NCBI GenBank assembly: GCA_040388625.1
Contig: JAZKBK010000003.1
Location: 186,001 to 250,000, forward strand
Direction: 5' to 3'
From: Gemmatimonadota bacterium
GTDB lineage: Bacteria; Gemmatimonadota; Gemmatimonadetes; Gemmatimonadales; Gemmatimonadaceae
DNA: 64,000 nt
The notes under the pieces are model-generated. The model saw only the letters and a program-made list of their open reading frames with translations, was not told the origin of the DNA and did not search any database. A program made the position numbers and the translations under genes. Shown here one piece after another: positions 54,273 through 57,776 of the stretch. Each line of letters starts with the position of its first letter. The stretch's first letter is position 1.

Positions 54273-54377
54273 CCGTCAATTGCCGTGACTCGCATGGGAC
54301 TCTGGTCGCTCGGAAATCGGCCGCGAGATGAAATCCCGGCTTGCGCGATCGCGGCCATCACCACAATTTTATTTCCG

Positions 54378-54491
54378 ATGCGCCACTCTTCTCCCGCCAC
54401 GCGATTTTATTACTACGCCAGCTACTGGGGACTTCCCCAGGGTGTAATCGTCGCACGCGGGTACCTGGCCAGACAAGGACAGCAAGGCTAG
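54378..54491 (+). CDS. Putative aromatic leader peptide (37 aa) of the DAHP synthase operon
   Basis: ATG 54378 to TAG 54489-54491 encodes MRHSSPATRFYYYASYWGLP and 17 further residues. Phe-Tyr-Tyr-Tyr-Ala-Ser-Tyr-Trp (54405-54428) is a run no ordinary protein would need. It lies 90 nt before the DAHP synthase ATG and just before the competing RNA stems of the attenuator. A ribosome starved for Phe or Tyr would stall there. No strong Shine-Dalgarno is seen; in-frame upstream starts (GTG 54285, ATG 54294) exist, so the exact N-terminus is uncertain. Confidence 0.65.
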   Translation: MRHSSPATRFYYYASYWGLPQGVIVARGYLARQGQQG

Positions 54492-54557
54492 AAGTACAGA
54501 AGCAGCGCTCTCGATATCACGCCCTGGGGATTCAATCCTCAGGGCTTTTTTGTTTTT
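54425..54557 (+). promoter_or_regulatory. Transcription attenuator upstream of the aromatic operon
   Basis: Segment 1 CTGGGG (54425-54430) can pair with segment 2 CCCCAG (54435-54440). Segment 2, extended to CCCCAGGG (54435-54442), is the exact complement of CCCTGGGG (54522-54529). That is segment 3, the 5' arm of an intrinsic terminator: GCCCTGGGGA / TCCTCAGGGC (54521-54530, 54536-54545), followed by TTTTTTGTTTTT (54546-54557). Stalling on the Phe/Tyr run would mask segment 1, free segment 2 and break the terminator. This is the classical attenuator layout. Confidence 0.75.
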
Positions 54558-54581: not shown

Positions 54582-55556
54582 ATGTCCCAGTCAGCTCCTG
54601 AATACACATTAGCCGCGCACCCGACAACTGTTGGTGACGCCAGATCATCGACCAAGCCCGTCCGCGTGACTCCCACACTGATCATCGGCGGACATGATGT
54701 GGTCGTCGCGGCTGGCCCGTGCTCCGTCGAGGGATACGACATGCTCCTCGCCAGCGCGCGGCACGTGCAGTCGGCCGGTGGCACGCTGCTGCGCGGCGGC
54801 GCATTCAAGCCGCGTACATCCCCCTACGCATTTCAGGGGCTCGGCGAGGAAGGACTTCTGCTGCTCGCATCGGTCCGCGAGCAGACTGGGATGCCGATCG
54901 TCACCGAAGTGATGGATACGCGCCAGGTCGCGCGCGTCGCACAGATCGCCGACGTGCTTCAGGTCGGTGCACGCAACATGCAGAACTTTCCACTGCTCGC
55001 CGAGCTGGGACGGGCGGGAAAACCGGTACTCCTCAAACGCGGTGCATCGGCGCGAATTTCGGAGCTTCTGCTTGCCGCCGAATATGTGATGGCCAACGGG
55101 AACGAGCGCGTGATACTGTGCGAACGCGGCATCCGAACGTTCGAGACGATCACCCGCAACACACTGGACATATCGGCGATCCCCGTGTTGAAAGCAGAGA
55201 CGCATCTTCCCGTGATCGTCGACCCGAGTCATGCCGGCGGTCGTGCGGATCTCGTGCTGCCGCTCGCCCTCGCGGCGATCGCCGCCGGCGCCGATGGATT
55301 GATCGTCGAGGTACACCCCGATCCATCGGCTGCGCGCTCCGACGCAGATCAGCAGCTGACGTTCGCGCAGTTCACCGATCTCATGCATGGCATCTCACTG
55401 ATCGCCGCTGCGACCAACCGCGCGGTCCGCAAGCCGATTCCATCTCCGGTCGTGCCTAACATCGCTGCGAGCGACGTCGCTACCAGGTCGCACGACACGC
55501 GACGGCTTGCGGAGGAGACTCTCGCGGAAGAGACTCTGACAGTGGTGGCCGCATGA
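54582..55556 (+). CDS. aroF: 3-deoxy-7-phosphoheptulonate (DAHP) synthase
   Basis: 324 residues, the short class I-beta (KDO8P-like) form without an N-terminal ACT domain. [95 protein letters not shown] are the substrate and metal sites. It joins PEP and erythrose-4-P, the first step of the shikimate pathway. The C-terminal tail ([22 protein letters not shown]...) is extra. GAGG lies upstream of the ATG. The gene is first in an operon controlled by the attenuator and overlaps the next gene by 4 bp. The symbol is approximate. Confidence 0.93.
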
Positions 55557-56227
55557 TCGCGACACACCGCTCGACCGCGCGACTCTCTTCCACACACGAA
55601 CACCCCGACGACGGTATCCACGTTGCATTTCAGGGCGAGCTCGGCGCATACGGACATCAGGCAATCGCGCAACGCTGGCACGGTGATGCGGTGCCAGCGC
55701 CATCGGCATCGTTCGAGCACGTAGTCACCGACGTGGCGTGGGAGATGGCCGATTTCGGGATACTGCCCGTGTGGAACTCCGTGGTGGGCGACATCGCCGG
55801 TGGATGTGCAGCCGTCAGGCTTGCCAGGAGCTCGCCATATGGGCTCATCGTGATCGGGGATACCCACGTCGTCGTGCGACACCATCTGCTCGCCCTTCCA
55901 GGTCATCGAATCGAGGACATCGAATCCGTGACCAGCCATCCCGTCGCGCTCGCGCAGTGCGGCAAGTTCCTCGCAGCGCATCCGAAAATCAGGCCGATAT
56001 CGGGCTATGACACCGCCGGCGCCGCCCGTGACCTCGCAATGCACGGCACGCGTAACGCCGCGGCAATCGCAGGGCGCTTCGCTGCCGAACGCTATGGTCT
56101 CGTCGTACTCGAAGCGGACATCCAGGATGTCCCCGACAACGTGACACACTTTCTCATACTGGCGCGTCCGGTGCGTAACAGCGGTGCATCGCGCATGCCG
56201 CGCGCGAGCGAGGTCGTACGATGGTGA
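55553..56227 (+). CDS. Divergent prephenate dehydratase
   Basis: 224 residues, no ACT domain. The dehydratase motifs are recognisable but altered: [15 protein letters not shown] (normally GPxGT), [18 protein letters not shown] (normally VPIENSxEG), [15 protein letters not shown], and [12 protein letters not shown]. The final motif reads [15 protein letters not shown], where the usual TRF triad is THF (Arg replaced by His). The fold and Thr are kept, so conversion of prephenate to phenylpyruvate is plausible but not certain. It overlaps its neighbours by 4 and 7 bp. Confidence 0.75.
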
Positions 56228-56652
56228 TCACACCCGATCTGGACGCGTGGCGCGTCCGGGCAGTCCGCGGCGCAACCACCGTCGCGGGAGACAATCAGCT
56301 GCTCGTCCACGACGCCATACGCGAGCTGCTGACCACCCTCATGGCGCACAACGATATCAGAAAGAGCGATATCGTCAGCGCAGTGTTCACCGCCACGACG
56401 GACCTGCGTTCCGCCTTCCCCGCCACCGCCGCACGCGACCTCGGCTGGAACGACGTTCCGATGCTGTGCGCGTCCGAGATCGACGTTCCCGATGCCCAGC
56501 CGCGCTGTCTTCGAGTGCTCCTGCACGTCGACCGGCGCGCCTCGCAAGCGCCGCTCGTGCCGATCTACCTCCGCGACGCCGCATCACTCAGACCCGATCT
56601 GCCGGCCGCATCTCAGCGGGAGCCGGAACTGGCGGGAATGGCTCGGAGTTGA
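56221..56652 (+). CDS. aroH: AroH-type chorismate mutase
   Basis: 143 residues, the trimeric Bacillus-type mutase. VRAVRGATTVAGDNQLLVHDAIRELLTTLM begins the domain (Arg of the active site). KSDIVSAVFTATTDLRSAFPATAARDLGWNDVPMLCASEIDVPDAQPRCLRVLLHV carries the Cys, Glu and Arg that bind the transition state. It rearranges chorismate to prephenate, the substrate of the overlapping upstream gene. The C-terminal 30 residues are extra and unstructured. Confidence 0.93.
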   Translation: MVITPDLDAWRVRAVRGATTVAGDNQLLVHDAIRELLTTLMAHNDIRKSDIVSAVFTATTDLRSAFPATAARDLGWNDVPMLCASEIDVPDAQPRCLRVLLHVDRRASQAPLVPIYLRDAASLRPDLPAASQREPELAGMARS

Positions 56653-56666
56653 TATATCCACTCGTA

Positions 56667-57776
56667 ATGCAATCAGCGACATCCGAAGTAACGCACTCCA
56701 GTACCAGACCACCCACAGCACGGGGCGTGTTGGCGCGCTATGCAGAATTTCTTCCGCTGACGGCAGCGACCCCTGCCCTGTCTCTCGCAGAGGGCGACAC
56801 CCCTCTGCTTGCAGCTCCGCGCCTTGCGAAGTGGGTTGGCGTGGACGATCTGCACCTCAAGTACGAAGGGGCCAATCCGAGCGGATCGTTCAAGGATCGC
56901 GGGATGGTGGTCGCCGTCGCCAAGGCGATCGAGGCTGGCTCGACGACGATAATCTGTGCGTCCACCGGCAACACCTCGGCAAGTGCTGCTGCTTACGCGG
57001 CGCGCGCTGGCATTGAGGCTGTAGTGTTGCTGCCCGCTGGAAAGGTTGCGCGCGGCAAGCTTGCGCAGGCCATCATGGCCGGTGCGACTGTGATCACGCT
57101 CGATGGAAACTTCGACCAGGCACTGTCGGTCGCGCGCGATCTCGCACGTGATTACCGCGTCGCGCTCGTGAACTCGGTCAACCCACATCGCATAGCTGGC
57201 CAGACGACTGCTGCATTCGAAGTGTGCGACGTACTCGGCGATGCACCGGAAGTTGTCGCGCTACCCGTCGGCAATGGCGGTAACGTCACCGCGTATTCGG
57301 AAGGTTTCCGCATCTATCGGGACGCGAACCGCAGTACACGCATGCCCATGTTCATCGGCGCACAGGCCGCCGGCGCCGCGCCGCTGGTACACGGCGCACC
57401 GGTCGCGAATCCCGAAACCGTAGCGACCGCAATACGCATCGGCAATCCGGCTAGCTGGAAGTCGGCGGTGAATGCGGTAACGTCATCGGGCGGTGAATTC
57501 AGCGCAGTCACCGACGATGAAATTCTTGAATCGTATCACAAGGTCGCCGAGCTCGAAGGCGTGTTCTGCGAGCCCGCCTCTGCCGCGGGGATCGCCGCAC
57601 TCAGAATCGCTGTTCGCAACGGACGCGTCGCGCCAGGAATGCGCTCGGTGTGCGTGCTTACAGGCAACGGACTGAAAGATCCCGATCGCGCAGTGCCTGA
57701 ATCGTTTGCTCCTGCAATTCTTCCAGCCGACGCGGCAGAGCTCGCCAGACAGCTGCATCTGACACGACTGTCGTAA
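56667..57776 (+). CDS. thrC: Threonine synthase
   Basis: 369 residues, the PLP-dependent fold II form. LHLKYEGANPSGSFKDRGMVVAVAKAIEAGSTTIICASTGNTSASAAAYAARAG carries the Schiff-base Lys (SGSFKDRG) and the phosphate-binding loop. VALPVGNGGNVTAYSEGFRIY and GVFCEPASAAGIAAL complete the site. It converts homoserine phosphate to threonine. It lies 14 bp after aroH and is therefore co-transcribed with the aromatic genes, although threonine belongs to the aspartate pathway. Confidence 0.93.
   Translation: MQSATSEVTHSSTRPPTARGVLARYAEFLPLTAATPALSLAEGDTPLLAAPRLAKWVGVDDLHLKYEGANPSGSFKDRGMVVAVAKAIEAGSTTIICASTGNTSASAAAYAARAGIEAVVLLPAGKVARGKLAQAIMAGATVITLDGNFDQALSVARDLARDYRVALVNSVNPHRIAGQTTAAFEVCDVLGDAPEVVALPVGNGGNVTAYSEGFRIYRDANRSTRMPMFIGAQAAGAAPLVHGAPVANPETVATAIRIGNPASWKSAVNAVTSSGGEFSAVTDDEILESYHKVAELEGVFCEPASAAGIAALRIAVRNGRVAPGMRSVCVLTGNGLKDPDRAVPESFAPAILPADAAELARQLHLTRLS

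Follow-up and report, generated by a model that had tools for sequence, protein, structure and literature searches.

A predicted ribosome-mediated attenuator with an aromatic-rich leader ORF before DAHP synthase genes of Gemmatimonadota

Whether the short segment ahead of a DAHP synthase gene in a Gemmatimonadota genome is a transcription attenuator worked by a translating ribosome, and to which amino acids it might respond, is the question raised by the present locus. The window, i.e. the whole 64,000-nucleotide stretch of DNA analysed, had been given an attenuator interpretation from its letters alone (the sequence-only reading), and this is supported by conservation of the aromatic codons and by covariation of two of the proposed stems across the phylum. 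From its anatomy, conservation, covariation, ribosome geometry and promoter spacing, the element is very probably a ribosome-mediated transcription attenuator. The control codons, the genes present and an apparent route to Tyr from Phe all agree with a sensor of Phe and Tyr, to which Trp may be added.

All features of the locus are on the + strand. The leader ORF, read from the sequence, has 37 codons (MRHSSPATRFYYYASYWGLPQGVIVARGYLARQGQQG; 54378..54491, ATG at 54378 and stop codon at 54489-54491) and contains Phe-Tyr-Tyr-Tyr-Ala-Ser-Tyr-Trp in eight consecutive codons (54405..54428), just as the sequence-only reading had described it (a 37-codon frame with FYYYASYW). The coordinates it gave for three pairing segments are also right, namely CTGGGG at 54425-54430, CCCCAGGG at 54435-54442 and CCCTGGGG at 54522-54529. 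The first of these, region 1 (54425..54430), pairs with 54435-54440 in a hairpin of -10.0 kcal/mol. Complementarity between the other two is present as proposed but is longer than claimed: region 2 (TCCCCAGGGTGTAAT, 54434..54448) matches region 3 (ATCACGCCCTGGGGA, 54516..54530) at 14 of 15 positions, which none of 200 shuffles equalled, and the duplex is worth -24.9 kcal/mol. Region 3 overlies the 5′ arm of an intrinsic terminator hairpin, 3:4 (54521..54545, -18.7 kcal/mol), with a U tract (TTTTTTGTTTTT, 54546..54557) 24 nt 5′ of the aroF ATG (54582). Both the terminator and this distance had been proposed, though the stem has 11 bp with one G-U and not 10 bp. Overall, folding of the window leader beats 200 of 200 shuffles (z -4.0).

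The first gene after the terminator, aroF (54582..55556), encodes a DAHP synthase (DAHPS) reduced to its catalytic domain (PF00793, 3.5e-79; TIGR01361; no PF18152 match). It is followed by a 224-aa prephenate dehydratase (PDT; 55553..56227), whose sole Pfam match is PF00800 (3.2e-45), with no ACT domain match, and by an AroH-type chorismate mutase (CM; 56221..56652; PF07736, and TIGR01796 above cut-off), the three genes overlapping by a few bases. By domain profiles the order is thus DAHPS-PDT-CM followed by thrC, and the DAHPS-mutase-dehydratase order given earlier was wrong. The threonine synthase gene thrC (56667..57776; TIGR00260 above cut-off; start codon picked from the sequence) begins 14 bp 3′ of the mutase gene and may be the final gene of the operon. 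Being directly 3′ of the aromatic genes, it may therefore bring threonine synthesis under the same attenuator.

Relatives of the window's genome are Gemmatimonadota, the best DAHP synthase matches being named Gemmatimonadaceae and Gemmatimonadetes records. DNA matching the region is found in three other genomes of the same genus, with leader, pairing segments and terminator conserved in the alignment. The FYYY run varies within the genus (SYRSYW in L004), and in the genus alignment the Tyr-Trp codons of L003 contain NN. For the phylum, DAHP synthase was searched in 298 genomes, and the upstream DNA of 130 genes was examined under a strict rule, which asks for four or more F/Y/W within 8 codons of a short ORF and for a terminator 20-220 nt further on. 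The rule matches 73 of 130 loci; where enough upstream DNA is available, matches number 72/125, as against 0/125 for antisense, 0/124 for downstream DNA and 0/375 for dinucleotide shuffles. By eye, approximately 18 further loci look real, with fewer aromatics or a weak terminator or U tract. A terminator-like hairpin nearly devoid of U tract is seen at L074 and L077.

Genus alignment and phylum loci together show a leader ORF kept in sequence within the genus and in kind phylum-wide (e.g. MNVGAATYFYYYYRTPVTGRGGRG, MSCATAYRYYYYYATPNTGRWSRTR and MRHNASFYAYWFTPTPTGHGVGHCCA), so that conservation of aromatic codons in relatives, proposed as a check, proved positive across the phylum. Summed over 70 unique leaders, the control residues in the 8-codon windows are Y 208, F 103 and W 42, with 4 to 7 aromatic codons per 8, often including Trp. 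Other genes of the pathway were also inspected. Phe-rich leaders precede some stand-alone PDT genes (e.g. MTRAFTFAFFFFGFPNGG), and the leaders at L231, L236, L239, L240, L247 and L249 have the same leaderless promoter spacing as described below (e.g. MTRAFTFAFFFFGFPNGGREGQRAQ). No Trp leader was seen at trpE of the window's genome or before most trpE genes of the phylum, nor at the second DAHP synthase gene of the window's genome. At L252 and L253, which belong to a different class of Gemmatimonadota, trpE is preceded by short ORFs containing three Trp codons (HWAWHW and WPHHWIW).

Ribosome-mediated attenuation calls for a short ORF rich in codons for the operon's amino acids, for an intrinsic terminator between that ORF and the first gene, and for an antiterminator exclusive with the terminator; the first two are in place, and the third, 2:3, is conserved with covariation. 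On an alignment of 72 phylum leaders, the 2:3 covariation score is 0.230, versus 0.128 when shuffled and 0.039-0.098 in slid controls, and 70 cells are altered on both sides versus 33.8 in shuffles. The 3:4 terminator gives 0.518 versus 0.193. Taken singly, 37 of 73 phylum leaders have a 2:3 pairing with p<=0.05 against shuffles; counted from where the aromatic window begins, the median distance to the first position of region 2 is 34 nt, and the partner of region 2 is the 5′ arm of the terminator. The stem order 1:2, 2:3, 3:4 of the sequence-only reading, and the covariation suggested there as a check on all three, therefore stand phylum-wide for the latter two but not for 1:2, which is present in the window and in same-genus genomes. 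Elsewhere it is not above chance (p<=0.05 in 7/70 leaders, median p 0.52), and a phylum-wide 1:2 protector stem is rejected.

Placement of the control codons is a further matter, for the stalled ribosome has to leave region 2 free. In the phylum leaders the median distance from the last aromatic codon to region 2 is 13 nt, and the front of a ribosome with this codon in the A site, judged by ribosome footprints, reaches about that far. For a ribosome stalled at Tyr11, Tyr13 or Tyr16, the window RNA between its front and the 3′ end of region 3 folds into the antiterminator 2:3 (-43 to -35 kcal/mol), and the RNA 3′ of a ribosome at the stop codon gives the terminator fold only. One aspect of the window counts against the attenuator model. 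Its stop codon is some 40 nt 3′ of region 2, so a terminating ribosome leaves region 2 uncovered.

A sigma-70 promoter is predicted at 54341..54370, with a -35 element TTGCGC (54341-54346), an 18-nt spacer and a -10 element AATTTT (54365-54370), this spacing being kept in the genus. The hexamers are degenerate: the spacing is right, and the -35 and -10 sequences are weak. The -10 element is 7 nt from the ATG, and the predicted transcription start is the A of that codon (54378). The layout TTG..., 17-18 nt, NANNNT, 6-8 nt and a start codon (AUG or GUG) recurs in 55 of 73 leaders versus 0-2 in shuffles, and stricter hexamers are matched in 48 of 73 versus a mean of 4.4. Since the -10 ends 6-8 nt before AUG or GUG, the start codon itself is the predicted transcription start; given that and the rarity of Shine-Dalgarno-like words (4-mers in 4 of the 48 loci with the strict promoter), the leader mRNA is probably leaderless.

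As deduced from the sequence, the leader would be translated, stalling in it would cause read-through, and Phe, Tyr and perhaps Trp would be the amino acids that count. The A of the leader AUG would be the first transcribed base, and translation would be initiated on this leaderless end by a 70S ribosome. When charged tRNA-Tyr or tRNA-Phe (perhaps tRNA-Trp) is scarce, the ribosome would stall within FYYYASYW, its front reaching region 2; pairing of 2 with 3 would then preclude the terminator, and RNA polymerase would continue into the DAHPS, PDT and CM genes. With aromatic tRNAs charged, the ribosome would reach the stop codon, 2:3 pairing would come too late, and 3:4 with its U tract would terminate transcription 24 bp before aroF. 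For this genus there is an alternative, in that region 2 could refold with region 1 when the ribosome runs to the stop.

A variant of this mechanism, whose probability overlaps that of the main reading, has the same element acting mainly as a Tyr (or Phe) sensor, with part of the aromatic run carrying the weight. The C. glutamicum AroR leader, which has Phe-Tyr-Phe, responds to Phe limitation only (PMC11802643), and in the window region 1 is masked only by a ribosome at Tyr16 or Trp17, the one at Trp17 already overlapping region 2. Against such partial sensing, F, Y and W are mixed freely among the leaders, and the 2:3 fold is favoured from every Tyr codon tested, leaving the variant plausible at a little under an even chance. 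Another reading is arrest by the nascent peptide itself, with a free aromatic metabolite as the signal in place of slow decoding at starved codons; in its favour, YWG.PQ is kept in the genus. That conservation, however, falls in the sequence of the 1:2 and 2:3 pairings, so RNA pairing accounts for it. Across the phylum the peptide sequence differs, with aromatic density and geometry being what is kept, and leader residues vary with the downstream gene; peptide arrest is accordingly improbable.

Regulation by a riboswitch, T-box or protein-bound terminator, with the ORF incidental, would also place a terminator before the gene. Yet the combination of aromatic ORF and terminator is absent from all controls, the promoter is placed exactly on the ORF start, and nothing relevant in Rfam, including Phe_leader, Trp_leader and T-box, was found in the window at a relaxed threshold or in 12 loci at the gathering threshold. 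Such regulation is even harder to credit than peptide arrest. (An NsiR1 match at 23.9 bits was dismissed as a terminator look-alike below its family's cut-off.)

If the ribosome-mediated attenuator is as proposed, its control residues might be expected to bear some relation to the genes behind it. Where TyrA (prephenate/arogenate dehydrogenase) follows DAHPS (25 leaders) the control windows hold Y104 F25 W1, where prephenate dehydratase follows (9 leaders) F21 Y19 W7, and with any other gene (39 leaders) F61 Y100 W35. In a sample of 20 from this last class, the longest downstream ORF is an aromatic-pathway gene in L026 only (a chorismate mutase, at a contig end). Trp occurs in the control window of 1/25 leaders with TyrA downstream versus 36/48 of the rest (p 2e-9, on raw counts that ignore kinship). 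Phylogenetically independent pairs number 4-9, and a sign test on them is not significant. With the tree allowing so few contrasts, the link is therefore suggestive: control residues seem to follow the operon, with Tyr for DAHPS-TyrA, Phe and Tyr for DAHPS-PDT, and all three for a lone DAHPS.

Prominence of Tyr codons before what would, by its enzymes, be called a "Phe" operon merits attention. No match to PF02153 (TyrA) was found in the window's genome, the profile being found in controls, and there is one biopterin-dependent aromatic amino acid hydroxylase (PF00351). Among 101 genomes, PF00351 is present in at least 13 of 25 without PF02153 versus at most 19 of 76 with it (p 0.02). With PF00351 present and no PF02153 found, this organism probably obtains its Tyr from Phe, and the operon is then probably its Tyr supply as well, which would account for the FYYY..Y leader. 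A second peculiarity concerns the enzymes. Most DAHP synthases carry an N-terminal extension, for which a fused chorismate mutase was considered and rejected: in those relatives with longer N-termini that were checked, it is the ferredoxin-like regulatory domain PF18152. With a DAHPS lacking PF18152 and a PDT lacking ACT, less allosteric control is expected, and the attenuator may bear a larger share of feedback in the window's operon. A broader synthesis has somewhat better than even prospects: a leaderless two-stem attenuator (2:3 and 3:4, no 1:2) would be general in the phylum, with control codons re-tuned to the downstream genes (to Tyr before DAHPS-TyrA, to Phe before PDT, and to Phe, Tyr and Trp together before a lone DAHPS), and in the window's genus, where Tyr apparently comes from Phe and DAHPS and PDT are without their usual allosteric domains, the leader would be the main remaining feedback control.

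Outside the phylum, Clostridium and relatives (L156, L175, L203 and L188) have, upstream of DAHPS, a terminator preceded by ORFs whose peptide is conserved (for instance KYYFYFSWGYFYFSAGYFFCKK), and part of the L156 leader, CTAATGAGT, could pair with the terminator arm, GACTCATTA; the sequences suggest that Clostridia too may have an aromatic leader attenuator. Aromatic-rich short ORFs with terminators also precede DAHPS in Acidobacteria (L166, L204 and L190), Clostridia (L167, L177, L193 and L215) and Spirochaetia (L208).

A 2010 terminator survey named Proteobacteria and Actinobacteria as the only groups with known leader peptide systems and itself added Firmicutes; it makes no mention of Gemmatimonadota (PMC2965389). 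A literature search that covered few subscription papers found nothing relevant on attenuators or leaderless mRNAs of Gemmatimonadota. The mechanism is thus a known one, and the switch is apparently undescribed in this phylum. What appears to be new is the phylum-wide set, the predicted leaderless start, the lack of 1:2 outside the genus and control residues that seem to depend on the operon. Leader-peptide attenuation would thereby reach a phylum for which no prior description was found, with a large comparative set in which control codons appear to change with operon gene content. If the leaderless start is true, the leaders would be simple systems for the coupling of 70S initiation at a 5′ end to RNA polymerase, and would also suit asking whether attenuation works without a 1:2 stem.

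Likeness to the pheA (Phe), trp and his attenuators of E. coli lies in a leader ORF with cognate codons, a 2:3 antiterminator, a 3:4 terminator and a biosynthetic operon downstream. A Shine-Dalgarno site and a protector stem 1:2 are features of those E. coli leaders; the present mRNAs, in contrast, are probably leaderless, and only this genus has 1:2. A leader peptide translated from a leaderless transcript, as predicted here, has a parallel in the ilvBNC attenuator of C. glutamicum, treated as a leaderless mRNA in PMC11857589, which differs in sensing branched-chain amino acids and in its three-hairpin model. The uORFC-13-1 motif before aroF in Acholeplasma, a predicted Phe leader (PMC8632094), is similar in that an ORF with Phe codon(s), predicted to be a leader, lies together with a terminator ahead of a DAHP synthase gene; it differs in having at least one Phe codon, another structure, and a range limited to Acholeplasma and environmental sequences (PMC8632094). 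The sequence-only reading suggested that such a leader, with Tyr dominating, is not known to have been described for its group, and no earlier description was found for Gemmatimonadota, but a Phe/Tyr leader before DAHPS does have a precedent. The aroR leader of C. glutamicum aroF (Phe-Tyr-Phe) is experimentally studied as a case of ribosome-mediated attenuation (Neshat et al. 2014, as summarised in PMC11802643; likewise reported in PMC4046766). In AroR and in the present leaders alike, Phe and Tyr codons stand side by side ahead of a DAHP synthase gene, with ribosome-mediated attenuation, predicted for the present leaders. Compared by described layout, the Gemmatimonadota leaders differ from it, with its Phe-Tyr-Phe and response to Phe only, in belonging to another phylum, in having 4 to 7 aromatics in 8 codons, often with Trp, and in the genes downstream; AroR is the closest precedent.
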